DNA of 52,836 nucleotides from Gonapodya prolifera JEL478 (Eukaryota; Monoblepharomycota; Monoblepharidomycetes; Monoblepharidales; Gonapodyaceae), in contig KQ965892.1 in NCBI GenBank assembly GCA_001574975.1, forward strand, positions 1-52,836. The letters run 5' to 3'. The position numbers were made by a program, and so were the translations under genes. The notes below the pieces were generated by a model. It saw only the letters and a program-made list of their open reading frames with translations, had not been told where the DNA came from and searched no databases. This document shows, in pieces, positions 15,372-51,111 of this stretch. The first letter of the stretch is position 1, and each line of letters starts with the position of its first letter.

Positions 15372-17406
15372 TCACACCATCCATCCCACCACGCCGAACA
15401 CACCCGCCACCACCGCTCCCATCAGCAACCCCACATCCACCTTTGCCTTCCACGCCGCGCCGCCTTTACTCGTCGGTGTGGACGTGGAGAATGTGTTCGA
15501 GCCCTGCGTCCCCGACGGAGCAGGGGCGGGGCCGCTGGGGAGTGTGGACGACGCAGCCGGGCCAGCGTACAAAGCGGAGAAGAGGATGACGTTGGTGCCG
15601 CGGTGGACGAGGTGGAAGAGGAAGGGTTTGTTGAACTGTTGAGGGGGGTAGGGTGGTCAATTAGCGGGAGGGAGGGGAGAAAGGCGGCACAAGGACACGA
15701 GACACGAACCTTCACTGTTGGCGGCGTGTCAGTGCCAGCGCTCGTAGCCACCATGACGACCGTTGCCGCGCTCGCCTCGGTCCCGTTCTCGTTGACGGTG
15801 AGGGTGGCCTTGTGGATCGCGCCCGTGACCACGAAGGGCACTGCTTCGTCCAGCCATGCGAACGGCCGCGTGAGAACCGAGTAGTCCCTGCTCCTGCTCC
15901 CGCTCCCGGGTTTGGTGGTATTGGACCCCCACATCTGCAGCAAATCGTACTGCGACTCGAGCTCGATCAAGCGAGGCACCACGAGATTCATCTTCGCCGA
16001 CGTCGCTTGCGGGGCTTTGGGCAGTTTGTCGCTTGTGATCGGCGAATCCTGCGGCGCGACCGTCGTGAAGGGCGTGAATGTGAGCGGGCCCGCGAGGTAC
16101 GCGAGGGCCGGGTTGTTCGCGAGGTCTGCCGGTGGGGTGAACGTGCCCCCGGTGGCGGCGTCGGGCTGCATGACGAAGTAGGCGTCGAAGGTGTGGTTGA
16201 AAGGTACCCGCACGGCGGTGTATGCGTCGGTGTTGATGTAGTCGAGGCGGGTTTGGAGGACCATGTACTGGACTTGGGTGATTGCCGGTTGGGATGAGGA
16301 GTTGCTTGTGGCGAGGACTTGGAACTCGGACGCCGTCGGTTCAGGCACGAACTTCTCCTTCCACGCGTCCTTGAAGTAAAACGCCGACGCCAGGACAGCG
16401 TCCATCTCTCTGACGCTACTGTCCACGACCTGCGTGATCTTGCCGTACGTCGCGGCGGCAACCCAGATGTTGATGGCGGTTTCGTTGAGAAGCGGTACGC
16501 TGGCGGTCGTGCCGAGGAGTTGCGTGGTCACGGTGGTTTGGTAGGAGGTGGTGATGTTGATGGGTTGTTTTACCCAGACGGAAGATGCGATGGCTGGGGA
16601 GGTGGTAGGGTGAGACGCGCGTATTTGAACAAGATCATTCGGCTGCGGCAGGAGTATTCGCTGGATACTCGCGCTTCGCGTAGCACATCTCGCCGCTCGG
16701 TCCTCGGTCAGCGCTATCGCGCTTGGGCCTCGGTATCCTCACCACTTTACGGACAACTCGGAATCCGTGCTTGGCACTCCATCCCTCACAACCCCCAACC
16801 CCCAAAGACAAACTCACAGACATTCGCGCCCGAGTTCTGCACGCTTGTCAGTACAAAATTCACACCGGCGATGTAGTCTGCGTAACTGACATTGGCGTAC
16901 AGCGGCGCGAGAAACAGGTCCGGTGTGCGAGCACCTGCCAAGGACGGAGGAGTAGGACGGAGGACGGACACGAGACGTGTGAGCAAGGTGACACGCGCGG
17001 CTGCGGCACCATTCCCCCATTCCCCCACTCCCCCATTCCCCCATTCCATGAACCGTCGACTCTCACCAGCAACAAGCAACGCAATCGCATGATGAATATT
17101 AAACCCCGAGAACGCGTACCCGAGCTTAGACTGCGTTGTTCCCACCCCAGTGACAGACTCGACGACAAGGTCCGCCAGGTACCTGTTGATGGTGTCCGTC
17201 ACGGGTACGACGCCCAGGGGTGCGGCTGTCGCTGGTGCCTGCCGCCGGGCGAAGCTGCCACTGTTACTGCCCCTGCCGTGGGTGTCAGGCGTGTGATGCA
17301 GAGTGGGCTTGTCAGCGTGCAAGCCAAAGCCCATTGCGGGAGTCGCCATCGCCATCACAATCAGCGCGAGGCAGAGCGATGTCCGCGCCACACCGAGTTT
17401 TCTCAT
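15372..17406 (-). CDS. Secreted serpin (serine-protease inhibitor fold) with hydrophobic C-terminus
   Basis: Exons 17067-17406, 16818-16934, 15710-16593 and 15372-15635 give 534 aa. Residues 1-26 form a clear signal peptide (CLALIVMAMATPAMG). Serpin landmarks follow in order: FSGFNIHHAIALLVAG (helix B region), INIWVAAATYGKITQVV, VLASAFYFKDAWKEKFVP (shutter and strand 3A), GAIHKATLTVNENGTEASAA, then KFNKPFLFHLVHRGTNVILF, which satisfies the serpin signature. The reactive loop (about 423-447) has the flexible hinge GTEASAAT typical of inhibitory serpins; the likely P1 region is made of small residues (Thr/Ser/Ala/Gly), suggesting an elastase- or subtilisin-like target. After the fold comes a Ser/Pro/Thr stretch and a final hydrophobic segment (GLLMGAVVAGVFGVVGWMV) that could be a GPI signal or a membrane anchor. 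Serpins are rare in fungi. Confidence 0.92.
16691..16733. repeat. GC-rich intronic repeat, copy in serpin intron
   Basis: Contains the core CCTCGGTCAGCGCT followed by GGGCCTCGG and lies inside the 224-nt third serpin intron (16594-16817). The same core recurs in the long BCAT intron at 38931-39019, in the same orientation relative to the transcript. Confidence 0.6.
17011..17047. repeat. CCCCCATT minisatellite in serpin intron 1
   Basis: Four to five tandem copies of an 8-nt C-rich unit with one variant (CCCCCACT). It sits within the 132-nt first serpin intron and does not touch coding sequence. Confidence 0.85.
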
Positions 17407-18370
17407 CCTTCGTAATTTTTGGGTGGATGTGCGGAGCGTGCACGCCCCCTGGGGAGCAGATGCTCTTATGTGAAGCGAGGGGAGTGACCTGCCTGTGGCT
17501 GCGGCCGCCTGGGGTCGGCGACACCTCAGTGACGGGAACCGTTCGGGAGTTGATTCCAAATGGCGGGAGAGAGATTTAATTCTTGGCACGAGCCAACGTG
17601 TGATCAACTCATTTGCCATGAAACCAGAATCGAGACATGCAATTCGGGCCGCCATGACGGGTCTTGGACTAGAAAGGATTTGATCACCGTATCTTGGACT
17701 TTTCAATACACCATAAAAATGCACCGAAACTACCTTCAATACCTCGACACAAGAAATCAGGCGCTTCCGTCATGGCCAACCCATCAGCCCTTGTTACTCT
17801 GCCTCAGCCCCAAGACACGACGACAGCCTCCCAATTACAATCATCATCATGAGTTCTGTAAATTACGACTTTGCTCATGCCATAGCTAAGCAACATAATA
17901 ATAAATTCGTTGGTTGGTCAGTTCAAGAGAACCATCTGTGGCCATTGGGTGGCATGGTCCCTGTAGCGTTTGCATCCATTCTCGGGGCAATACTTATTTG
18001 AGAGAGAGTTTCTCTCGCGCACAAGACTGAAAAGAGACAGTGTTCATTGATGGTGAGTTCCTTGGCAAGGTTGCCAAGGTGAGCTTCTTACATAACATTG
18101 CATCGTGGGCATTGGAAGTGGTAAATGTGGGTATTGCAATTTCTCCAGTCACTGCACTGATCCCGAGAATTCTTTGAGGGTACTGGCTTAACTAGCTCCT
18201 TGATGTTCGTGCTAGCATACGAAAGTTTCAATTAAAATCAGAGGACAGAGATGTCACTGTTTCCACCACGCACCTGTTACATTCCAAACAGTTTGTTAGT
18301 TTGTGAAGAGTGCGAGCCCACCTATGAGTCCACATGAGTGAAACCTGGCAAACACAGAGGAATGGCATAG
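17407..18370. other. Intergenic, upstream of serpin
   Basis: No gene recognised. A near-perfect palindrome at 18060-18079 (9-bp arms CCTTGGCAA/TTGCCAAGG around two bases) could be a hairpin or a dimeric-factor binding site; nothing more can be said. Confidence 0.45.
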
Positions 18371-19062
18371 TTACATTCGCTGGCAATCCTGACATTGAAT
18401 GTGTTTCTTGTGTATCTCGCAGTCTTGCCAGTTGTGGCCCTTGGGAAGTTTATCCTCCGACACAAACGTCTCTTTTGGTAGAGCTGCGCTACCAACACAC
18501 CTTTCAACTTCAAGGTGTGTTGGTCGATTACGGGCAAACATGTCTCCAACGCATCGCTCTCCCACCTTAGGGTTCAAAGTCGCCTCGTGCGCCTTCACAA
18601 TAAGAAAAATGGCCCCATCTTTGACCCCCACCCACGTCGTCGCCTCATGTCCCTTGAAACCATCCCCCCATCCCGATTATGCTTCTTGCAGATCGGAAGG
18701 ATGAAATTCCACCGCACCACCAACAGCGTCTTGATGTACATATGGCCACCAACTTCTGCGGGCCTCTCACACCCACGAATCTGGCATATCTCGGGCCAAC
18801 ACGTCTTGTCCTTGAGCTCCTTCCGCGCGATCTCGCGCCACATGTCCTTCCACACGTCTGAGGACTCCTCGGGGAATTCTCGACTCTTGCCCATGATGCT
18901 CTGCCAGTACTTCACGAGGGCCACGTCGTCGTACCGCTGTCGCCACCCGCCGCCGTTGGGGGCTCGATCGTCGGAGCTCCCGTATACATTGCACACCTCG
19001 ACGTTGTCGGGGTGGACGTCCGCGTTTGCGCCGACTATCAAGAGCATTGTTCCGCTGAGCAT
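18371..19062 (-). CDS. Uncharacterised protein with Cys/His metal-binding-like motif, frameshifted
   Basis: Starts at the ATG at 19060-19062. The N-terminal part contains NVEVCNVYGSSDD, a charged helical stretch and the block CWPEICQIRGCERPAEVGGH followed by FILPICKKHN, a C-x4-C / H / C-x2-HN spacing reminiscent of HNH/treble-clef zinc sites. The frame then changes near 18665-18675, at a G6 run. The continuation reads FKGHEATTWVGVKDGAIFLI followed by VKAHEATLNP, which looks like genuine protein, so a one-base indel is likely. The 3' end is uncertain; the open frame runs to 18371 but coding may stop at the GTGGGA near 18569. I do not recognise the family and assign no function. Confidence 0.45.
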
Positions 19063-19349
19063 TCTGCGATGTGGTGGTTGGAATCGCAAAGTGCTCGAGA
19101 CTTACATATATAAGCCACTCTCAATCGGTTGCTTGGGATTTGAGTCGAGGGTTGAGGCATTCCTCCCTTAGACCCCCAAATCAACAACCGAACTGTCATC
19201 TTTCTCGCCATCCTGATGAAATGCCTGATTAGTGCAAGTGTTTGCTCAGCTCTTTGTGTTCGTAGGAACCTCACTTCATCAATCGTGTTCGACGAGATAA
19301 ATTCACTAAATGCTGCTTCGAGAAGGCATGCAATTCCGGCTGCAATAGA

Positions 19350-20515
19350 ATGCATGATTTGAGGATTTTTATGAACCGTCGGGTTGGCGAAGCGTGCTGC
19401 GGACACTTTTCTTTCAATCATCTTCCCGTTGAAGTCGCTGTGCATCTCGGGGACTTCCTTCCCGGCCGTCTGGGACTCCCTCTCAATCGAACACTACGAA
19501 ACCTCCTCGCAACACCGTCAGGAATCGCCCGCAGAGCACTGATTCTGTTTGGCGACAAAGCTATCATTTTAGAGTCGGGAAAGGCGGGAGCTGGTTTCGA
19601 GGTGGTCTCGTTTCTCCTTTGATACCGTGGTGTCAGGTTGCGGAAATACTGTCACAGGAGAGCATCCGCGGCACATTACAGCTTTAATAGCAGCGGCGAG
19701 TGTAGGAAATCGCGTCATTTGCACTCTTCTCTTGGATTTTGGCGCTGAAATCGTCCTTCGGGACAACGGCGCGTTGTGCAAAACTTGCGAAGCGAAACAG
19801 GTAGCCGAGGTTTACATGTCTGCCCTCGTGGAAGCTGCTTGGGGAGGACACTTGAGCGTGGGGGACGTGATGTTTGAGAGGCGGGCCGTTGAAATCGATG
19901 AAATTGAAAGAGAAGCCCTGCAGGCGGCTGCCACCAATTGCAAATGGGACGTAGTGTTCTACTTCATTGAGCATAAGTGTGATGTGCATACAGGTCAAGA
20001 AGTCTTGTTGCTGCGGCCGGCGTGCAGTGGAGCAAATTCAAGTTAACGCGGACGTGCACACACAAGGGGATTATGCATTGCTAGCGAGCATAACTATGGG
20101 TCACGGTCAACTTGCCGAACTCCTTCTCACTCACGGCGTTTATTTTTCTGTCCGTGAGAGCCACTGCTGTACACCGCTGGACCTGGCATCTGAGCGAGGG
20201 CACTGCAACGTGATTTTGGCACTGCTCAATCACGGTGCTAATGTTTACTTCAACAATGGGTCTGCCCTCCATTCGGCAATCACCAATAAGAGACACGAAG
20301 CCGTTCAACTTCTCCTGGACCAGGGCGCAGACCCCACAGCAGACAACGAGCCCCTCGAACTTGCTGCAATGATGGGTAATGCCACGGTCGCAAAGACCCT
20401 GCTTGACGCTGGTGCCCAAGTGAAGCCTCACGGTGACCGCACGATGAAGATCGCGAAGTGGTACTGTCATTCCAGTGTGGTGAAGATCTTTCGCAAGTAT
20501 GGTGCTGGATATTGA
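19350..20515 (+). pseudogene. F-box-like / ankyrin-repeat gene, frameshifted
   Basis: The N-terminal segment (LPVEVAVHLGDFLPGRLGLP, then IARRALILFGD) resembles the F-box-like opening of large fungal ankyrin families. It is followed by ankyrin units such as ALIAAASVGNRVICTLLLDF, GDYALLASITMGHGQLAELL, PLDLASERGHCNVILALLNH, SALHSAITNKRHEAVQLLLD and PLELAAMMGNATVAKTLLDA, ending at TGA 20513-20515. The frame breaks at 19617-19623, where one extra T creates TGA between SFLL and DTVVSG, and again between about 19985 and 20040. Ankyrin proteins mediate protein contacts; F-box/ankyrin proteins usually recruit substrates to SCF ubiquitin ligases. I cannot exclude assembly indels, but two breaks in 1.2 kb point to a decaying family member. 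Confidence 0.7.
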
Positions 20516-28207: not shown

Positions 28208-28406
28208 CAGAAGAGGACCGCAAAATGGTGCCCGCAGAAGGATTTCCGCAGTGGGAAGCGGTTACAAAAGGTTTGATCCCTCTCAGACGGGTGGAATCAT
28301 ACAGTGATGGAAACGGTTCTGAGTTGGGTGACAAATCGGACGGAGAAATGTTGTTGCCTGGACAAACGTACACAGCTCCCCTTGTTGGCGTCACAAATCA
28401 GGTTTT

Positions 28407-30288
28407 CTATTCTTTGAACATTTCTCTCGCTACAACTACTCTCATAATCTCATTTGTACCCTCTAAAATTCGGTGAACTCGCAAATCTAAGTTTCGGATG
28501 CGGAAGCATATTGACTATGTTGCGGGCCGATGGAAGGGAGAAAGGAAACTTACCTCTCAAGTACTGCTGTATGGGATAGTCTTTGAGATAACCGTATCCA
28601 CCTGTCAATACGAAAGAAAATAGCGCCAGTGTTATGGGTTCCTCTGAACGAACGGTGACTCACCCAATAGTTGCAATGCTTGGTCGCAAATCTAGTCCCA
28701 TTAAAGCACGCTCAAGGTCGTTTGGTGTCCAGTGGGATGGAGCAGAATATTCAACTCACATTATAACACTTCTCTGTCGCGTGCTAAATATACCGACAAC
28801 GACTGTGACAAACGTTTTGGCTAACAAAAGCACGCAATTACTCACTAGCTTCGCCATTGCGCATAGGGCAGGGACTGCTGGGTCCTGTGCATCCATTGCC
28901 TTGCCCGCTCTTCGCACCAACATTCTGGCGGCATTCAACTCTGTCGCCATATCGACCAATTGAAACTGTGTGTTTTGGAACGCAGAGATGGATTGACCAA
29001 ACTGCTTTCGTTGTTTGACATGCTCAAAGGCGTGCTCGAGCGCGGCTTGGGCTCCACCGAGAGAACTGCTGGCAATGTTAAGCCGCCCACCGTTCAGACC
29101 TTTCATAGCGATGGAAAATCCTTGCCCTACGCAGAGCGATGCAAGAGTTAATTTCACCAATCTGAACCAGAATTTGCAACCCACTCACCCTCCTTTCCAA
29201 CAAGGTTGGACGCTGGTACTTTGCAATCCTCAAAAATAACCGCACGCGTGGGTTGAGAGTTCCACCCGACTTTCTTCTCCTTCGCGCCGAACGAGAGTCC
29301 TTCCGTTCCCTTTTCTACGATGAAGCAAGAGATTCCCTTGGGTCCCGCTCCACCTGTGCGCGCCATCACAACGTATGCCTCCGAGTCTCCACCACCGGAA
29401 ATGAAAGCCTGGAGGGACCAGAGTCAAATTTGCGAAGATTTTGAAGAATTACTCTCACCAACCTTGGAGCCATTGAGGACGTAATAATCCCCTTCCTTCC
29501 GAGCAGAAGTAGAAAGATTACCAGCGTCCGAGCCAGCGTTGGGCTCCGTGAGACAATACGACGCCATTTTCTGTCGGCGATGATCATAAGAAGACAGAAT
29601 GTTGCACACTTTGGGGTCAACAACTCGCACCTCGAACGATGCCAATGACGGCAGGTACTTCTCCTTCTGCTGCACCGTGCCGTACTCGTCAATCATCCAT
29701 GCGCACATGTTGTGTATGGAGAGCAGTGCAGTCGTCGAGACATCTCCAGTGGCAAGCGCCTCGAATATGACTGAGGCGTCCAAACGGCCCAGACCGGTTC
29801 CACCAAAGTCGGGCGAGCAGTATATAGCTGAGGTATTCGATAGCGTGTCATGGGCAGCCGGTCTGGATGTATGAGCCGGAACGGTGTGCATCTTCACCTC
29901 CGAAGCCAAGTTCCGCTGCTTTCCGCATAGCCTTCTGAGGCCAGATTTCATTCAAATCCCATTCGCGCATGTTTGGGGCCTTCAAGGAACAGCGTCAGAT
30001 GTGGCATCGATTCGAGAAACGTCGAGGGCAACGCACGAATTCGGTGTCCGCAAACCTTTTGGCGCTTGCTGGAACTCTAGCTGCTCTTCCGTCAGCCCCT
30101 CTGACCCTAGATGTCCGTAACTGCTTGAGATCGGAAGTCCAGCGGAGAGAGCTTTGAGAAAGGAACATACAGTTCACGACACTCGCGAATCCTGAGATGT
30201 TTCGCGGTCGATTCATCGTCGGAGTAGCACATTGAAGCACGCGAGTAGATTTTCTGATGCATGCGCGTGCGCTCTTTGCGGCTAGCAT
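28407..30288 (-). CDS. Acyl-CoA dehydrogenase, isobutyryl-CoA (ACAD8)-like, copy A
   Basis: FAD enzyme oxidising a short branched acyl-CoA in mitochondria; the closest group is isobutyryl-CoA dehydrogenase of valine catabolism. Exons 30037-30288, 29898-29979, 29631-29827, 29463-29570, 29189-29408, 28846-29126, 28760-28783, 28664-28691, 28554-28601 and 28407-28486 total 1320 nt (439 aa). Motifs: [36 protein letters not shown] (FAD), [42 protein letters not shown]-type [30 protein letters not shown] and [10 protein letters not shown] with the catalytic Glu. The basic start ([14 protein letters not shown]) suits mitochondrial import. Oddity: the helix [12 protein letters not shown] is encoded but out of frame with KRFADTEF by one base, so the predicted protein carries an altered N-terminal segment. 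Confidence 0.85.
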
Positions 30289-30465
30289 GGTTGATGGAGA
30301 GAATGGTGATGACGCAGTGGAAGGGTTCTTCGGTGCATCTCTTGCTGGAACCATTTCCCTTCTTTGAAGGGAGTTGGGAGACGCGCAAGTACCGTATATC
30401 TCAAGCGCAGCAGTATGACGATATGTACAAGATTTTATGTACTCGTCACCCTCGACGACATACCG

Positions 30466-31901
30466 TCATTGTGCCTCCCCTGCCGGCGACGTCTTTGAGA
30501 CACTGAATCTGTACATGTCCCCATGCTTGAGATACACGAGCTCGGTAACATCAGTGAGCTCCTTGTCCTTGGCTGCGAGGTCTTGAAACTCCGAGAGAGG
30601 GCTTTTGAATAGATCGTAGTCGTTGTAGTGACTGGGAATATAATGTTTTGGGGGAGCCCGGCGTCCATGAGTGCTGTTGTTCCACATCAGGGTCCACAGG
30701 CATGACTTACACCGGAATTGCGACTTTGGGCTTGATAATCTTGAGGCACTCGACCCCCTATGGAGTACGCAGTCAATATTGGCTCATCAACACACGCAGC
30801 GTCGTCGCAACTCAGCTCACTTGCGCTCCATCCATGGTGACAACAAAGACCTTCAAGATCGTTGTGCCCCCCAAGTGGACGAGAGCCAAAGAGATATTCG
30901 GGAAGCGCTTGGGAATTTCCTGTGATGGTGAAAACATTATGCGGTTGGCTCGCCCCATCTAGTTTCTCCCACATACCTTCAAATCGTCGTAAAGGAGAGT
31001 ATCCCCCGATATCCAGAGTCGAAATTTTGGCGCCAAAGCTGATGCGGATCCAAAGTCGATGAGGGAGCCCATCACTGGAGGTAGTACTGGGTACAATTCA
31101 GTAATACAATTCAGTAAGCGATGGAGGATGACGAATGTTCGTAACGCAAGTACGAACGGAAACCCAGTCCAGTAGGTGCGTGCTTTCCCGGTGTTGCAGT
31201 AATGCTGACGGACGAGCTTCCCTTTGTGAACGTGATCTTGTCCCATGTTGAAAGCTCGTACAGTGTGGTTTCTTTAAAGCGATCAAGCTTCTTGATGTTC
31301 TCGACGCCGTGGGGTGTGGTGACGATGGGAATGTTGACCGGTCCTGTTTCGCAACTGCCGTGAGAAGAAGATGGAGGAGGGACGAACCAACGCGGTGCAC
31401 ATCGTACCTTTTTCCATAAATATTTTGTCAAAATGGTCCTCGTGAAAGTGGGATAGCACTACAAAAGCGGAGGTTAAGTCTTTGATCGATGTGCACCATC
31501 ATGCCAACTACCCACCGATGAAATCCACGTCCTTCGGTATGTCTCCGAGCTCTATCGCCGGATCTGTCAAGCGGATTGCCTCAACTCCAGGGCCCAGATG
31601 AGCGTGATCTCCCTTGTGGAGGAAGTTGGGATCTGGGGGCATTGAGCCAGTGACTTCAGCAACAGCAACGAATGCTTTTCGTCGGAGACTCTCACCCGTC
31701 ATGAAGCAGAATCCACCATAGCTATTTTAGGATGGTGATATCAACCCTCGCCGCCTGCCGTCTCCGACAGCTTTCGAAAGAAGACGAAAGCCCTCACCGA
31801 AAGATGACCGTGGCTGTGCCGACGAAAAGGACTTCTCCGTTCTGGATGTCTGGCTCCGACGAGGGGTCGGCAAGCTTGATTGTGTACTTTTCTTGCGCCA
31901 T
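30466..31901 (-). CDS. Metallo-beta-lactamase-fold hydrolase (Lactamase_B_2 / UlaG-like)
   Basis: Nine exons (31798-31901, 31696-31721, 31516-31632, 31408-31458, 31164-31343, 30977-31086, 30821-30919, 30711-30757, 30466-30631) total 900 nt (299 aa). The N-terminus GEVLFVGTATVIFRYGGF is the first beta hairpin. The zinc motif HFHEDH lies at residues 86-91, followed by PIVTTPHGVENIKKL, ITATPGKHAP, WISGDTLLYDD (zinc Asp), LVHLGGTTILK, FVVTMDG and the C-terminal VHYNDYDLFKSPLSEF with the last metal His. This layout matches cytosolic MBL hydrolases of the UlaG/NAPE-PLD-like branch, often acting on lactones or phosphodiesters; the substrate is unknown. It is adjacent to and co-oriented with the dehydrogenase, and a truncated copy lies at 34300-34416. 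Confidence 0.88.
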
Positions 31902-32054
31902 AGCGTCAGTTGACCGATGAGAAAGGCGTGTCACTGCCAGGGGAAAAAGCGGGGTATCTCCCAGTCCCGATCCTGCTGCGGTCAGTGTGGCGCACCTGAA
32001 CCGGTCAACGTGACACACTTCTCTAGCACCTGGGTTGTACTGGGAGCTGTCGCG

Positions 32055-32145
32055 TGTGGCTCGAGGAAGGGCACTCCAGCCAAGGAGGTGGACAAGCTCG
32101 CCCAAGGCAGGCACTAAATTCATTCTTACCTCCACCATTTCCCAA
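32055..32145. repeat. Spacer repeat of the tandem array, copy 1
   Basis: Upstream of the MBL gene. Shares blocks such as GCTCGAGG, CACTAAATT and CCTCCACCA in the same order with 35916-36003 upstream of hydrolase 2, marking both as the same ancestral divergent intergenic region. Confidence 0.65.
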
Positions 32146-32204
32146 ACCACTCAAACCGGACTACCGCTCCCTGACATCTGGCCTCCAAATTAAGTATGTA
32201 TCCA

Positions 32205-34100
32205 CTATTCTTTGAACATTTCTCTCACTACAACTACTCTCATAATCTCATTAGTACCCTCTAAAATTCGGTGAACTCGCAAATCTAAATTTCATATGCG
32301 AAAGCATATTGACTATGATGCGGGCCAATGGAGGGAAAAGGGAAGCTTACCCTCTATGGTACTGCTGTATGGGAAAGTCTTTGAGATAACCGTATCCACC
32401 TGTCGATACGAATAAACATTACCACCAGTGTTGTGGGTTCCTTGGAGCGAACAGTGACTTACCCAAGAGTTGCATTGCTTGGTCACAAATCTAGTGCCAT
32501 TATAGCGCGTTCAACGTCGTCATTCGGTGTCGGGTGAGATGGAATGGGATATTCAACTCACATCATAACATTTCTCCGTTGCATGCTAAATTACACTGAC
32601 AAGGACCGTGAGAAACACTTTGGCCAACAAAAGCACGGAATTACTCACCAGTTTCACCATCGCGCATAGGGCAGCGCCTGCTGAGTTTTGCTCTTCAATG
32701 GCCTTGCCCGCCCTTTGCACCATCATTCTGGTGGCATTCAGCTCTGTCACCATATTTAGCAGTCAGAACTGTGTATTTTGGAACAAAGAGATGGGTTTGC
32801 CAAACTGCTTTCGCTGTTTGACATGCTCAAAGGCATGCTCAAGGGTGGCATGGGCTCCACCAAGAGAACTGATGGCAATGTTGAGGCGCCCACCGTTCAG
32901 GGCCGTTCATGGTGATGGAAAATCCCTGCCCTACACAGAGCGATGCAAGAGCTTATTTCACCAATCTGAACCAGAAATTGCAACCCACTCACCCTCCTTC
33001 CCAACAAGGTTGGACACTGGTACTTTGCAATCCTCAAAATAACTGCACGTGTCGGTTGAGAGTTCCACCCAACTTTCTTCTCCTTTGCGCCAAACGAGAG
33101 CCCTTCTGTTCCCTTTTTTACAATGAAGCAAGAGATTCCCTTGGGTCCTGCTCCACCTATATGTGCCATCACAACGTATACCTCAGAGTCCCCACCACCG
33201 TAGATAAAAACCTTGAGGGTCTGGGGTCAAAAATACTTGCGAACATTTTGATGAATGACCCTAACCAACCTTGGAACTATTGAGGACGTAATAGTCGCCT
33301 TCCTTCTGCGCAGTAGTGGATAGATTACCAGGATCCAAGCCAGCGTTGGGCTCCGTGAGATGATACGGCACCATTTTCTGTCGGCGATGATCATGAGAAG
33401 GATGTACAAACACTGAGGGGACACCACAACTCCCACCTTGAATGACGCCAGTGATGGCAAGTACTTCTCCTTCTGCTCCACAGTACCGTACTCATCAATC
33501 ATCCACACAGCCATGTTGTGAATGGTGAGTAGTGCAGTCGTCAAGACATCTCCAGTGGCAAGCGCCTCGAACATGATTGAGGCATCTAAGCAACTCAGAC
33601 CAGTTCCACCAAAATTGGGCGAGCAGTATATAGCTGAGGTAGTTGACTGCGTGTCATGTGATGGGTTAGGGGTCTGAAGTTATGAGCCGGAACAGTGTGC
33701 GTCTTCACCTCTGAACCCAAGTTCCGCTGCCTCCCGCATTGCTTCTTGCGGCCAGATTTCATTCATATCCCATTTGCGCATATTGGGAGCCTTCAAAGAG
33801 CTGCGTCAGAGGTGGCATTGGCTTGAAAGCATTGAGCGTAACTCACGAATTCAGTGTCAGCAAACATTTTGGTGGTCTGCTGGAACTCAAGCTGCTCATC
33901 TGTGAGCCCCCTCTGACCCTAGACACTCAGGAGTATTTGAGATCAAAATGCTCAGCAACAGAAGTTTGAGAAATGAACATACAATTCATGACGCTTGCGA
34001 ATCCTGAGATGTTTCGCAATCGATTCATTGTCAGAGTAACACATCGAAGCACGCAAGCGCAAGTGTGGATGCATGCGCGTGCGCTCTTTGCGATTAGTAT
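32205..34100 (-). pseudogene. Acyl-CoA dehydrogenase copy B, pseudogene
   Basis: Collinear with copy A through all exons, and most splice sites remain. Lesions relative to copy A are loss of the start codon (ATG to ATA, plus positions 34098-34100), an extra G near 33915 before LTDEQLEFQQ, a one-base loss in a T run near 33037 that turns VIFEDC into VILRIA, an extra C near 32900, and TGA at 32763-32765 in the QNTQFQL motif. The FAD and substrate motifs are also eroded: NAGSDAG reads NAGLDPG and ISGGG reads IYGGG. Copy B keeps EQLEFQQ-TTKMFADTEF in one frame, which shows that copy A lost one base there. Confidence 0.9.
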
Positions 34101-34299
34101 TGTTGATGGATAGAATGTGATGATGCAGCTGAAGGTTTTAAAGAATGGTGATGACGCCGGGAGGAAGGTTTTGATTTGTGCATCTTTTGCCAAACACATC
34201 ATTTGGCAACAATTTTGAAGGGCGTTTGCATGACGTGCAGTACTGTTACACAAGCGCAACAGCATGACAATGTTCACCAGAATTCCTGTACTCGTCACC

Positions 34300-34416
34300 G
34301 TCAACAACATCCCCTCGTTGTTGCCTGGTTTGCGGTTCTAACAAACGGGACTTGTCCGTTCTAATCTGGCTGTGAGGGGTGGTCTGCAAGCTTGATGTAG
34401 TATTTTGCTTGCTCCA
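34300..34416 (-). pseudogene. MBL-hydrolase remnant (first and last exon ends only)
   Basis: The start MEQAKYYIKLADHPSQPD, at plus 34363-34416, is homologous to the start MAQEKYTIKLADPSSEPD of the intact gene. It is fused to about 45 bp resembling the intact gene's last exon. About 1.3 kb in between is gone, so unit 2 of the array carries only a scar of this gene. Confidence 0.8.
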
Positions 34417-34680
34417 TAGCGTCAGTTGTTGTATTTGAAACAAGTGTCACTGCTGGGGTGAAAAGGAAGGCCTGAACCCGTTTACCCCCGAAATGGGCCC
34501 ACACCCACACCTCACTATGGTCACTAATACCCGCCACACACCCGTCCCCCATTAATTCTGCCTCTGATTTAGTTCTTGCATGTTAATTCTCTTGTCCAGG
34601 CACATCGAACCCTGGATCCCGATTCTTGTTCCATGCATGAAAGCCATAGAGAACCTTGTGGTTGTCTTGTCCAACCAACC

Positions 34681-35635
34681 ATGACAATTGACATCAACGC
34701 CACACACTCCTATGCAAATGGCGACCTGGCACTGCATTATGCCAGCGTCGGCCCCGCGTCAGGCCCAATCATTGTGTTCCTGCACAGCATTGGTCTCTTC
34801 AGGCACTCCTGGTGGGACTTTGCCCTGGACCTTGCGCCCAAAGGGTACCGGTGCTTCCTCCTTGACGCCTGTTGGCACGGCAAGTCTGACCGAGCTGGTG
34901 GGCGGTACACGAGGACAGACTATACCTCGGATGTGATTGCCTTCCTAGATGCGGTGGTTAGGCCATGGGGGAAGAAGTGCGTCTTGGTTGGACATTTGCT
35001 CAGCGGCCTTGTGTTGTATGAGGCCAGTGCTGCACGGCCGGAACTAGTGGCGGGAATGCTTCTTGAAGGTGAGACTCGGCCTGTTGCTTCATTTGTCATA
35101 CCTGCCCTCACTTCATCCACCCCCCAAACCCTCAGATCCGCCCATCTACATGACGCACGCTAGGCTGGTCTCAAGTCCGTACCACTCCGCCTTCAAGAAA
35201 CTTTGCAACAACTGCAGAGCCTGCCAAGGCGCGAACCTACCCGTCGCGCACGTGCAGCAACTCATCACCGCCAGTCCTATCGCACTTGGCGTTCCTGTGA
35301 CCAGACGCGAATCGCTCACCGAGGCGGCACTCGTCGCGTTTGCCCATGGACTCCTCTCGTTGGACCCAGTCGTTTACGATACGCTCCTCAGTCCGGATGT
35401 GATGACCATCAATGGGGACGACAAGCCAAGTTGCGTTGTTGCGGGCATCTTGCTACGTGCGCAAACGGAGCTTGGACCCGCTTTTCTAGAGGAAGATACA
35501 GAGAGGTTCAGGAAGGCGGCGCCAGACGTGGTTGAGGTCAAAGGCGCTGGGCATCTGATTCATTCCTCTCGCGCCAGCAGAGGTGCCGTTGAGGAGGCGC
35601 TGGACAAGGTTTTGAGTGCCGCATTCGGGGTGTGA
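34681..35635 (+). CDS. Alpha/beta-hydrolase copy 1, catalytically compromised
   Basis: Two exons (34681-35068, 35136-35635; 67-nt intron) encode 295 aa, open throughout. It is clearly paralogous to 36187-37130, with shared segments RHSWWDFALDLAPKGYRCFL, DAVVRPWGKKCVLVGH and QGANLPVAHVQQLI. Key residues differ: the oxyanion HGLG is HSIG, DARGHGKSD is DACWHGKSD, and the nucleophile elbow GHSLGA is GHLLSG, so residue 106 is Leu instead of Ser. The catalytic His context (GAGHLIHSSR) is intact. With no nucleophile it should not hydrolyse esters by the usual route; it may be a pseudoenzyme or an early pseudogene. No stops or frameshifts are present. Confidence 0.88.
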
Positions 35636-35722
35636 TAAACAATACAACAAACGTGCGCGTTGCTTTTACATTGGGTTGCTTGTGATCGTTGAAGGCAATA
35701 ATATAATATTTACGACTCAAGT

Positions 35723-35787
35723 CTATTCAGAGAATCCCTCCTGAACAACCATCACCATCACGTACGCCCAACTGACAGTCGTGATCC
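35723..35787 (-). pseudogene. 3' fragment of small membrane-protein gene
   Basis: About 65 bp matching the end of the gene at 37195-37446, including the stop region. The rest of the gene is absent and homology ends abruptly near 35788. Confidence 0.75.
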
Positions 35788-35915
35788 TAGGCTGGTATGC
35801 CGCTCGCCCCTCCGCTGGTGCCAGATTAACTGTCGGTGTCACGTTCAATCTACAGATGCGGCCAGTGTGGGACACCTGGGCCATTCCAGATCGATTTCCC
35901 TGTGGGCGCTCGCCT

Positions 35916-36003
35916 CGTGTTGCTCGAGGGAGGGGACTCCAACCTCGGGGTGGATAATAAGCCCGCCCAAACCAAGCACTAAATTATGCGAACCTCCACC
36001 AAA
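35916..36003. repeat. Spacer repeat of the tandem array, copy 2
   Basis: Counterpart of 32055-32145 on the same strand; here it lies upstream of hydrolase 2. Confidence 0.65.
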
Positions 36004-36186
36004 TCCCAGACGCGAACTCGCTGATTAAAGAACTGTTGCAACTGTGACCCCTTCTACTCTTATGAGGCCGCATCATTCCGGGGCAATAATTGCCCCTGGT
36101 CAACAGAAGGGTCGTGCGGCAGCCTGGATCCCGAGCCTTCAACCATAAAAAGCCGAAACCAACGCCGCCTTCTATCCCAACCACCC

Positions 36187-37130
36187 ATGACAATGGACAT
36201 CGACGCCACGCACACCTACACAAACGGCGATCTGACACTGCAATACGCCAGCGTTGGCCCCGTGTCCGGTCCCATCGTTGTGTTCCTGCACGGCCTCGGC
36301 CTCATCAGACACTCCTGGTGGGACTTTGCGCTGGATCTCGCGCCCAAGGGGTACCGATGCTTCCTCCTCGACGCCCGTGGGCACGGCAAGTCTGACCGAG
36401 CTGGTGGGCGGTACACGAGGACGGACTACACCTCGGATGTGATCGCCTTCCTAGATGCGGTGGTTAGGCCGTGGGGGAAGAAGTGCGTCTTGGTCGGACA
36501 TTCCCTGGGCGCCGTCATGGCGTATGGGGCCAGTGCGGCACGGCCGGAACTTGTGGCGGGAATGCTTCTTGAAGGTAAGACATTGACTCGTCGGGCCGTA
36601 CTAGGACCTCATCCAAAACCGCAGACCCGCCCATGTACATGACATTCGCACGCCTAACCTCAAGCCCATACCATGGCCTCTTCGCAAAACTTCGTGAAGA
36701 CTGCAAAGCCTGCCAAGGTGCGAACCTACCGGTCGCTCACGTCCAGCAACTCATCGCCGCCGACCCTATCGCGCCGGGCGTTCCCGTCACCATGGGCGAG
36801 TCGCTCACCGAAGTAGGACTCGTCTCGTTGGCCCAGGGTATCCTCTCAGTGGACCCAGCCGTGTACGATGCCGTCCTGAGTTCGGATGGGGCAACCACCG
36901 ATGGAGATGACAAGCCTAGTTGTGCTGTTGCTGGAGTTTTGTTGCGCGCCCAGAAGGAGTTGGGACCCGCTTTCCGCGAGGAAGATGTAGAGAGGTTCAG
37001 GAAGACGGCTCCGAACGTGCACGTGGTGGAGGTGAAGGGTGCTGGGCACATGATTCATTCCTCTCGCGCCAGCAGAGGTGCCGTTGAGGAGGCGTTGGGC
37101 AAGGTGTTGAGCGCTGCTCTCGGGGTGTGA
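36187..37130 (+). CDS. Alpha/beta-hydrolase copy 2, intact
   Basis: Two exons (36187-36574, 36625-37130; 50-nt intron) encode 297 aa. Motifs: FLHGLGLIRHSWWDF (oxyanion HG), DARGHGKSD, VLVGHSLGAVMAYGAS (nucleophile Ser106 in GHSLG) and EVKGAGHMIHSSR (catalytic His). The acid is probably the Asp in DPAVYDAVLSSD or nearby. It resembles soluble esterase/lactonase-type hydrolases. No signal peptide. In the ancestral array block it is divergent from the MBL hydrolase, sharing a promoter region. The substrate is unknown; neighbours suggest acyl-CoA or lactone metabolism, which is inference. Confidence 0.9.
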
Positions 37131-37194
37131 GAAAACGGGCGCGTTGTTTGTGATCGCTGAGGGCAATAAATAGTATTTGCGAACTTTATCGAAT

Positions 37195-37446
37195 CTATTC
37201 CGCGAATCCCTCCTGAACAGCCTTCACCATCATATACGTCCAGCTGACAGTCTTCACCGTGAAGCTCAGCAACGTCACCTTCTCCACCACGGGGTGGCTA
37301 TAAATCTCCCTGCCCTTTTCCGCGACAGCTCCCACGAGAAACAGCGATGCGTTGAGCCAGCAGGCCCCCATGAAGGGCCAGAGAATCCGAGGGTCTATCC
37401 GCTTGGAGAAGGCGGTGGCCGAAAGGGCGATTTGGATGGTGCCCAT
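37195..37446 (-). CDS. Small membrane protein, unidentified, probably missing first exon
   Basis: The open exon encodes about 83 aa from the Met at 37444-37446 to TAG at 37195, with two hydrophobic stretches (WPFMGACWLNASLFLVGAVA and VTLLSFTVKTVSWTYMMV). Just upstream a GTATGT...CCCCAG intron would join IDYIM to MGTIQIALSA, so a further 5' exon near 37523-37560 is likely but its start was not resolved. The family is unknown. It belongs to the duplicated array: a tail fragment sits at 35723-35787. Confidence 0.6.
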   Translation of the reverse strand: MGTIQIALSATAFSKRIDPRILWPFMGACWLNASLFLVGAVAEKGREIYSHPVVEKVTLLSFTVKTVSWTYMMVKAVQEGFAE

Positions 37447-41345: not shown

Positions 41346-42870
41346 ATGTTGCTCATACACTTCTCGGTCGCAATCGCGGCCGTACTCACCTTCTTCGCGT
41401 CCTCATCCCAAGCCACGGACGATGTGTACAACGCCGTACTTGCCTCATGGCAGCAGGGCATGATCGAGAACGTCTTCAACAGCACCTTTTACGCGACGCC
41501 GGGCAACTTCTCCAGCAATTCGTCCAAACCGGGCGAGATTCTCAAATTCGAGAAAGTCTCTGGATCGGACCTGGATAAGGTGTACGCCTACCCGCCGGGA
41601 CTTACACTCTACCGCATGCTCTACGTCTCCAAGGACTTGACCCAGAAACCCGTCCCCGCGAGCGCGTTCATCCTCCTGCCTTACACCACCAAGTTCACGG
41701 GCGTGTCCGAGATGCGCACCGTGGTTTGGACGCACGGCACGTCTGGAATCACAAGGGACTGTGCCCCCAGCGTTCAGGTAAGTTGGACGAGTTCCTCCCT
41801 TGGCACGGCGACTGATCACACACTCTCCCCCCCCGCCCCCGCCCCCCCCTCGTAGCGCCAACTCTACTACGACTTTGTCGGCCTCTACCTCATCGCCATG
41901 AAAAGGTACGCCATCATCGCCCCCGACTACGCCGGGCAAGGCGCCGACACACAATTCAACTACGTCTCGGCGCGTTCGCACGCATACGACGTCGCATCTG
42001 CCGTCATAGCCACCCGCATGGCGTTCCCCAAAGGCTTTCTGAGCTACGACTGGGCCGTCATCGGACACAGCGAGGGCGGTCTGTCTGCATGGGCCGTCAA
42101 CGAGCACCAGGCTGTGGAGCCACGGGCGGGTTCCTCGGGGCGGTCTCCGTGGCGCCCGCCATGGATCCTCAGTCCATCAACCAGCGTCAACTGGGTCTTG
42201 CGGAACTCCGCGCCGCGATGGAGGCCGCCGGCACTGTGTTCTACCCCGTAACGTTCCTCGAATCGATTCGGCGCCTCAACGCCACCGCCGTCAACGTGTC
42301 CGATTGGCTCACGCCCAAAGGAGAGAAGGTCCTCGAGTACATCTTGAAGGGCGGATGCTTCGCCGTGGGGAACGCACTGGTCGCTGGATCCAAGATTGAA
42401 GATGTGAGTTCTCTTCTAATGCCTTGCCACACTGGCACCTGTCTGCCATTTAATCACGCGTCCACACCTTCACCCAGATCTTCAAGAGCGTCGCCTGGGT
42501 AAACGCCTCATTCACCGACGCCTGGACGAACAACGTGCAATCGCGTGGTGTTGGCGCGCTGGCAGGGCCCATGCTGGTGGTACAGGGGGACAAGGACGAG
42601 GCCGTCGACCCCTACACCAACTTCAAGGCGTACCAAGCCAACTGCGCCGCGAACAAGGACAGCAAGATCCGGTACAGCATCTACCCGGACATGATGCACG
42701 GACCGGTGGTGTTCGCTGGGTTCCTGGAGTACACGCAGTTCCTCTGGGCGCTGTTCGAGAAGGACCCCTGGGTCCTTCCGTCGACCTGCGAGAGCTCCTA
42801 CCAGAACGCGACGATCGCAAGCCCGAACCTGGCAATTAACTTTGCTACTAGATTCGAAACCGGCCAGTAA
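41346..42870 (+). pseudogene. Secreted lipase-like alpha/beta hydrolase, copy 1, single frameshift
   Basis: Resembles fungal secretory lipases. The signal peptide is IHFSVAIAAVLTFFASSSQA. Motifs: RTVVWTHGTSGITRDC (oxyanion region), YAIIAPDYAGQG, DWAVIGHSEGGLSAWAV (nucleophile elbow), GPMLVVQGDKDEAVDP (acid loop) and YPDMMHGPVVF (catalytic His). Exons 41346-41777, 41856-42403 and 42478-42870 total 1373 nt, exactly one short of a codon multiple. The frame changes between NEHQAV (about 42115) and GGFLGAVSVAPAMDPQ (about 42128). Copy 2 at the same point is one base longer, so copy 1 lost one base about 15 codons after the nucleophile. The protein would be truncated before the acid and His. A C-rich tract (41827-41850) lies in intron 1. 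Confidence 0.8.
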
Positions 42871-49621: not shown

Positions 49622-51111
49622 ATGCTACCAAACCTGATCCTTTGCACAATCGCCGCGGCCTCCGTCTTCTTTGCCACCGGCACGTCAGCCATGGATAATG
49701 TGTACAACGCGGCTCTGGCTACTTGGCAGCAGGGCATGGTCAAGAATGTCTGTAATAGCACCTTCTACGCGACACCTGGCAACTTTTCTAGCATCCGCTC
49801 CAAACCGGGGGAGGTTCTCAAGCTGGAACGAATCTCAGGAGCTGCTCTGGATAGAGAATACGCCTATCCGCCGGGACTTGTCCTCTTTCGCATGCTCTAC
49901 GTTTCCAAGGACCTTGACCAGAAACCCGTGCCAGCGCGTTCATCCTGGTCCCTTACGACGCCAAGTTCAACGGCCATGCTTCGATGCGAACCGTGGTCTG
50001 GACTCACGGCACATCTGGAATCACGAGAGATCGCGGACCGAGCGCTCACGTTTGAGTCCCTCGTTTGAGTGGCAGCGTTTATTTCGTCACTCATTGATGA
50101 CCTCGGCCCACCCCCACCCCATCCCCACAGAGGAACCTCTACTACACTTCGAAGGTCTCTACCTCCTCGCGCTCCGCGGGTACTTTGCTATCGCCCCCGA
50201 CTACGCCGGGCAAGGCTCCGGCACGCCCTTCCATTACGTGGCCGCTCGTTCCCACGCATGCGACGTCGCATCGGCCGTCATTGCCTCCCGCGCGGCATTC
50301 GCAAAGGAGCTCATCATCTACGAGTGGGCCGTGATCGGACACAGCGAGGGCTGATTGACCGCATGGGCCGTCAACGAGCACCAAGCTGCCTAACAAAAGA
50401 GCGGCTTCCTCGGAGCCGTCTCGGTGGCTCCCTCGATTCATCCTCAGTCCATCAACCAGCGCCAGCTGAGCATCCCACAGCTCCAGGCGGCGATGGAAGC
50501 AGCTGGTACGGCGTTCTACCCTTTGAAGTTCTTGGAGTCGATTCGGCGCCTCAACACCACCCACGGCAGTCAATGTGTCCGATTGGCTGACTCCGAGAGG
50601 GGAGAGAATGCTGCAGTACTCGCTCAGAGGTGGATGCATTTCGGCGGGAACTGCGTTGGTTAATGGATCCAAGGTTGATGAGGTGAGGTTTAATTTTTTA
50701 CATGACGTCATAGGGTGCCGCTCTGCTCCCATTCCCTAACTTCAACTCTGCACCCAGATCTTCAAGAGCGTTGCCTGGGTAAACGCCTCGTTCACGGACG
50801 CCTGGACGGCCAACGTGATGACACGCGGGGTGGACCCCTTGGCAGGCCCGATGTTGGTTGTGCAAGGAGATGCAGTTGGGGCCGTGGACCCCTCACCAAA
50901 TTTCAACGCATACCAAGCCAACTGCGCTGCGAGCAAGGACAGCAAAATTCGGTACAGTATCTACCCCGGAATGCGGCACGACCCGTTGCTCTTTGCAGCG
51001 GCGATGGAGTACATGCAGTTCCTTGGAGGTCTCTTCGATCGATACGCGAAAGTGCTCAAAAACCGTGCGAGCACGGGTACCGAAACGCAACTGCGGGAAC
51101 TCCCAACCTGA
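49622..51111 (+). pseudogene. Secreted lipase-like alpha/beta hydrolase, copy 2, pseudogene
   Basis: Paralogue of 41346-42870 with the same three-exon structure and shared stretches such as NSTFYATPGNFSS, YAYPPGL, PDYAGQG, QSINQRQL and IFKSVAWVNASFTDAWT. The signal peptide is LILCTIAAASVFFATGTSA. Lesions are a 4-nt loss near 49936 that breaks PVPASAFIL, TGA at 50353-50355 directly after GHSEG (the second Gly of the elbow), TAA at 50391-50393, and further frame changes near 50570. Conserved catalytic-His context YPGMRHDPLLF survives near 50965. The ORF at 49622-50068 would make only the N-terminal third. Confidence 0.88.

Follow-up and report, generated by a model that had tools for sequence, protein, structure and literature searches.

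The 52,836-nt stretch analysed here (the window) is an entire contig, C162, of the Gonapodya prolifera JEL478 genome (47.56 Mb, 207 contigs), and its 28-38 kb locus carries repeated pieces of four neighbouring genes, encoding an acyl-CoA dehydrogenase (ACAD), an MBL-fold metallo-hydrolase (MBL), an alpha/beta-hydrolase and a small membrane protein. By parsimony, this arrangement probably arose through two partial tandem duplications that overlap in the spacer between the MBL and hydrolase genes and were followed by decay, rather than through triplication of a four-gene block. The window genes have short introns, the list of open reading frames shows exons rather than whole genes, and splice sites were placed by eye; for all gene copies, single-base differences could be sequencing errors. 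The pieces of the locus, in order along the window, are:

28407..30288, minus strand: ACAD1, an ACAD8-type acyl-CoA dehydrogenase; read as 11 exons, including one of 24 nt, with one frame break (exon 2) as assembled
30466..31901, minus strand: MBL, a UlaG-like metallo-hydrolase; eight exon pieces read by eye, open, HFHEDH motif present
31977..32147, no strand: spacer copy 1, upstream of MBL and at the end of the first duplication (X1); matches 35857-36011
32152..34326, minus strand: ACAD2, the decayed second ACAD copy; frame broken in several places, start codon changed, 81.2% to ACAD1
34332..34465, minus strand: MBL scar, all that is left of a second MBL (exon 1 with its 5' flank); 72% to 31813-31949 over 137 columns
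34681..35635, plus strand: hydrolase 1, an alpha/beta-hydrolase of two exons; open, 295 aa, nucleophile serine replaced (GHLLS)
35726..35788, minus strand: copy of the membrane-protein gene's final 21 codons, contained in the DNA match of the hydrolase repeat
35857..36011, no strand: spacer copy 2, upstream of hydrolase 2; matches 31977-32147
36187..37130, plus strand: hydrolase 2; open, GHSLG and GAGHMIH motifs present
37195..37446, minus strand: last exon of the small membrane-protein gene; 83 aa, protein identical on contig C40

Comparison of the window with itself gives four direct matches within the locus, all head-to-tail and in one orientation. These are the ACAD repeat (28363-30476 and 32152-34326, 81.2% identity), the hydrolase repeat (34611-35780 and 36123-37252, 77.4%), the MBL first-exon scar (31829-31947 and 34348-34464, 76.9%) and the spacer (32041-32147 and 35903-36011, 76.6%), the last extended upstream by an additional 22-nt match (31977-31998 and 35857-35878). 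The spacer alignment scores 132.7, whereas 200 shuffles average 39.8 and reach 68.9 at most. Off-diagonal similarity is present in the spacers as well as in the truncated pieces, an outcome in favour of the initial annotation, which named its absence as a refutation. The membrane-gene tail is a weak match when taken alone (62% over residues 63-83, E 0.21); it lies within the hydrolase DNA match and runs in frame to the same stop as the full gene. The repeats, gene order and strands described in the initial annotation are thereby confirmed, and the contents that it gave to three successive units largely hold. The first unit contains ACAD, MBL and spacer as described, with MBL open and ACAD1 not intact (exon 2 of 70 instead of 71 nt). 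All pieces of the second (dead ACAD, MBL scar, hydrolase 1, membrane-gene tail) are found, with the qualification that hydrolase 1 lacks the nucleophile serine, while the third matches throughout (spacer, an open hydrolase 2 with its motifs, and a membrane exon that looks intact).

The two junctions between repeats are of different types. At the first (32147/32152) spacer adjoins the 3' flank of ACAD, and at the second (between 35780 and 35857) the membrane-gene tail adjoins spacer. In the first unit the spacer match ends just a few bases away from the ACAD2 match, leaving no stretch long enough to search for remnants. At the junction of the third unit, two stretches (76 + 111 nt) searched for remnants of the ACAD and MBL bodies gave nothing above the shuffled level when compared on both strands with 26-35.8 and 36-42 kb (60 shuffles each, without a positive control). 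Since the junctions differ in type and no trace of lost genes is found, a three-block history is not required. In the favoured history, duplication X1 would have copied ACAD, MBL and spacer (about 3.8 kb) to give the first junction, while a second duplication, X2, would have copied spacer, hydrolase and membrane-gene tail (about 1.5 kb) to give the second junction, so that the two overlap in the spacer that separates the divergent genes MBL and hydrolase. Slippage or unequal exchange may have made both duplications, and later deletion or replacement would have removed the body of the second MBL as well as the spacer in front of hydrolase 1. Within the second junction, 35788-35853 has as its sole match a 62-nt place on C67 (244265-244326, 80%).

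The initial annotation read the locus as a tandem triplication of the block ACAD-MBL-hydrolase-membrane gene with complementary gene loss. Tandem duplication followed by decay stands, and the triplication would account for every piece of the three units in the claimed order and strand and for the similar age of the two duplications (synonymous divergence, dS, of 0.43 ± 0.05 between the window ACAD copies and 0.52 ± 0.07 between hydrolases 1 and 2). We nevertheless consider three blocks unlikely as well as unneeded, because they call for two more large deletions, one removing the hydrolase and membrane gene from unit 1, the other removing ACAD, the MBL body and what remained of the membrane gene between units 2 and 3, neither of which left a trace in the 76 + 111 nt tested. 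The two boundaries would also be expected to be of one type, a discrepancy that later deletions could explain. A further alternative, which we hold to be improbable, places the hydrolase duplication first, followed by one large tandem duplication of about 28363-36011, after which the first unit would have lost, between 31949 and 31977, its hydrolase 1 together with the membrane tail. It would explain why both spacer copies stop matching at one homologous point (32147 and 36011), but it costs one deletion more, and the 27 nt at 31949-31977 contain no hydrolase or membrane-tail remnant, a stretch too short to tell. As to the order of X1 and X2 in the favoured two-duplication history, the dS difference of 0.09 amounts to about one standard error.

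A second version of the region is found on contig C40 (357,625 b). Apart from unaligned gaps, the window is collinear over its whole length with C40:288021-345032, in inverted orientation, and identity is 0.76-0.99 in the 50/53 one-kb windows having more than 50 aligned bases. Beyond this alignment the end of C40 (350377-357625) pairs with C124:2-7117 (79-89%). C162 and C40 are probably two unmerged haplotypes, a reading drawn from contig geometry because the homology ends at contig ends. That they are instead a segmental duplication within one haploid genome, which would leave the tandem history unchanged and turn the decay into one between paralogous segments, appears rather unlikely. In its favour, the two versions are strongly diverged for a pair of alleles (the identities just given, dS of 0.06-0.32 across nine gene segments and 0.38 for the hydrolase), and the genome is not doubled everywhere, as C20:286001-296000 shows no full second copy among 24 matches. 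Against such a duplication, homology reaches both ends of C162, and the sequence that pairs with the C40 end stands at the start of C124, a layout to be expected of haplotype contigs left unmerged. The search for haplotype pairs in the genome covered the flanks of C40, this C20 stretch and one C17 stretch; C40:278320-283000 matches itself only, and the C17 stretch has a partial partner on C96 (84% over 2.2 kb), a possible further pair, that lies inside a repeat family and is thus ambiguous. Taken together, about 70 kb (window 1-52836; C40:288021-357625; C124:2-7117) exists in two diverged collinear versions in an apparently single-copy neighbourhood, and this region could be one of old haplotypes, of hybrid ancestry or without recombination.

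The ACAD tandem and the MBL scar are shared by both versions, the scar together with the region before hydrolase 1 (34323-34739, 86%). If C40 is the other haplotype, both features are older than the split of the two versions. Outside the gap in C40, ACAD copies holding the same position in the two versions have a dS of 0.09 and 0.16, and the remaining four pairs range from 0.22 to 0.36; of 271 informative sites, C40 ACAD1 shares 234 with window ACAD1. The dS values within the window (0.43 for the ACAD copies, 0.52 for the hydrolases) compare with 0.06-0.32 between versions in the nine gene segments and 0.13 for ACAD1. Both duplications therefore seem to predate the split, though for the hydrolase the margin in divergence is thin: hydrolase 2 differs from the C40 copy by a dS of 0.38 ± 0.05, and for exon 2 alone the two values are 0.66 ± 0.11 (hydrolases 1-2) and 0.35 ± 0.07. 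In the proposed sequence of events, the hydrolase repeats of C40 would have recombined after the split, at the cost of one hydrolase, and the C40 MBL would have broken, while in the window both ACAD copies would have broken and MBL and hydrolase 2 stayed open.

The one hydrolase on C40 is a recombinant that combines hydrolase 1 with hydrolase 2, being hydrolase-2-like at 5/26 informative sites to the left and 129/174 to the right of a break near 36214-36219 (0/1000 permutations as strong); it carries two one-base deletions, one 9-base and one 3-base deletion, and matches the public protein P0001 ('alpha/beta-hydrolase'). The C40 MBL contains a nonsense codon and frame-shifting indels. C40 ACAD2 has 11/11 exons in frame, with 418 aa open as assembled, while C40 ACAD1 has a gap of 442 N in its middle, its exon lengths being in frame outside the gap. 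C40 ACAD2 is of mixed character, ACAD1-like at 192/374 informative sites, with 86/97 of the sites in 29263-29862 and 106/277 elsewhere; misassembly or gene conversion has likely affected 29263-29862, which overlaps the part where C40 ACAD1 is N. This ACAD1-like patch over the gap is what would speak for an assembly artefact, in which the repeats would be mis-joined or collapsed reads. As an account of the whole locus such an artefact is very improbable, given copies about 20% different with indels of their own and an ACAD tandem found on two contigs with copy-specific matches.

Several points weigh against two overlapping duplications older than the split. A three-block history is unlikely on grounds of parsimony alone, and no spacer copy is found before hydrolase 1, though X2 predicts that one was there originally. 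The age margin for the hydrolases is thin, as given above, and the C40 ACAD pair differs less (dS 0.20 ± 0.04) than the window pair, conversion or misassembly having probably touched C40 ACAD2. Finally, single-base lesions may be sequencing errors, and the haplotype status is taken from contig geometry, not from read depth.

The gene copies themselves record unequal decay. ACAD1 scores 514 bits to PDB 1rx0 ('Acyl-CoA dehydrogenase family member 8'), the next PDB sequence reaching 304 bits, and is 84% identical to the 'Isobutyryl-CoA dehydrogenase' P0244 of Gonapodya sp. JEL0774. The N-terminal, middle and C-terminal domains (PF02771, PF02770, PF00441) are above cut-off when the query skips the frame break, and from these matches the ACAD is assigned to the isobutyryl-CoA dehydrogenase (ACAD8) type, an enzyme of valine breakdown. 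The reading frame of ACAD1 is broken by exon 2, of 70 nt as opposed to 71 nt in the in-frame copies (possibly a sequencing error), and the donor of this exon reads GTGCGT, as opposed to GTGAGT in the other three copies. The initial annotation held that the surviving genes form one working set; with ACAD1 frame-broken, this fails on the contig as assembled. Between the two versions, the ratio of nonsynonymous to synonymous divergence (dN/dS) of ACAD1 is 0.05 over 257 codons. Since the split, the gene has therefore been under constraint for the greater part of the time, and the frame break, if real, is recent. In window ACAD2, exons 2, 6 and 7 are of wrong length and the start codon is changed. 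Its exon 10 donor is out of register rather than lost, as was considered, since GTAAG sits one base further on. A 24-nt microexon (HATEKCYN; window 28760-28783) is read in all four ACAD copies. The idea that the copies lack eight residues before ICDQALQL was accordingly dropped, because the microexon encodes these residues and JEL0774 P0244 has the same stretch.

In a tree of 14 sequences, the two ACAD8 proteins of JEL0774 (P0244 and P0245) group together and apart from the G. prolifera copies, at support values of 0.84 and 0.80, which are modest. The genome has at least one more gene of this type beside the tandem copies, an ACAD8-like gene (P0252, 65% identical) on C20 at about 290.7-292.3 kb. 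The public protein P0242 is a gene model that joins the 5' exons of C40 ACAD2 to the 3' exons of C40 ACAD1 across the MBL gene (C40:308982-314273); public gene models from this place need care, as exons of two tandem copies are fused in this one.

The MBL gene matches PF12706 at 35.6 bits (Pfam cut-off 27) and has the motif HFHEDH, of the form HxHxDH, the metal motif of the UlaG-like MBL fold; on both features it is classed as a UlaG-like MBL-fold metallo-hydrolase. Among the best 120 of 4334 matches, its named relatives are mostly bacterial (43-50% identity), and in a tree of these 120 its group (support 0.93) also holds two proteins of chytrids and an unnamed one from a metagenome; the gene is a possible candidate for an old transfer from bacteria. 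No protein named Gonapodya occurs among the same 120 matches, a weak negative since the C40 copy of G. prolifera itself is also absent there. The MBL dN/dS between versions is 0.36, which fits a dead C40 copy. The membrane exon is identical in protein sequence on C40 although dS is 0.32, and the 83-aa exon by itself has no Pfam match and no PDB match up to E 1.

Hydrolase 2 matches PF00561 at 77.8 bits (cut-off 25.8) and retains both the nucleophile elbow GHSLG and the catalytic histidine motif GAGHMIH, assigned by motif; it can be described as putatively esterase- or lactonase-like. GHSLG is also present in the named relatives P0002 (Gonapodya sp. JEL0774, 50%) and P0003 (Hyaloraphidium, 47%). 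In hydrolase 1 the frame is open over its full 295 aa, but the elbow reads GHLLS, so that GxSxG is absent. On the hydrolase 1 branch 59/111 substitutions replace an amino acid, fewer than the neutral mean of 78.8 (0/2000 simulations as low), which indicates that the gene was constrained for part of its life. Zero stop codons arises in 8% of neutral runs. Around the nucleophile 6/16 residues are changed (P 0.03), while the active-site windows taken together are not enriched in changes (8/47, P 0.38).

One far-reaching reading joins these observations. Gonapodya prolifera would be a diploid, perhaps hybrid, early-diverging fungus whose haplotypes share an old double tandem duplication and then underwent complementary loss, and hydrolase 1, with catalytic serine lost, frame full and fewer amino-acid replacements than under neutrality, would be a retained pseudoenzyme. 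We regard the conjunction of the two as distinctly unlikely. If it is true, the window haplotype keeps MBL and hydrolase 2 and the other keeps an in-frame ACAD, so that a working set exists in trans only. Joint action of the four genes on one substrate, as suggested in the initial annotation, finds no support in an ACAD of isobutyryl-CoA dehydrogenase type next to a UlaG-like MBL, nor is it refuted; on the simplest reading they would be neighbours and not parts of one pathway. In JEL0774 the ACAD genes are on contigs of 12,226 and 2,809 b and the hydrolase is on one of 181,586 b, the shortness of the contigs leaving linkage still possible.

Elsewhere in the window, a second dispersed direct pair (41371-42758 and 49647-51038, 74% identical) has both members also on C40, and a further short self-match lies near 21.3 kb, outside the duplicated locus. 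A serpin-like reading frame at 15425-16738 (PF00079, 90 bits) is followed by about 3 kb (16642-19649) that have no counterpart in the collinear stretch of C40.

The genes of the locus belong to familiar families, and a literature search, covering titles and abstract openings, returned no title that concerns the locus. The tandem ACAD copies resemble known ACAD8 in the match of ACAD1 to PDB 1rx0 and to P0244 and differ in forming a tandem pair with frame breaks, with a further 65% identical relative in the genome. The window MBL shares family and motif with known UlaG-like hydrolases (PF12706) and differs as a multi-exon fungal gene. Hydrolase 2 resembles members of the alpha/beta-hydrolase family (PF00561) in keeping GHSLG, and hydrolase 1 departs from them with GHLLS. 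The turnover is of an ordinary kind and indicates no new system or pathway; it offers a small case, in an early-diverging fungus, of decay differing between two versions of one region, and illustrates how partial duplications that overlap may come to look like a gene block present in several degraded copies. With known tandem duplication and pseudogenisation, and with birth-and-death turnover, the locus has in common its head-to-tail repeats, its frame-broken copies and a recombinant single copy on the second version. It differs from ordinary birth-and-death turnover in that two partial duplications would share a spacer and so mimic a degraded three-copy block, and in that decay differs between the versions.

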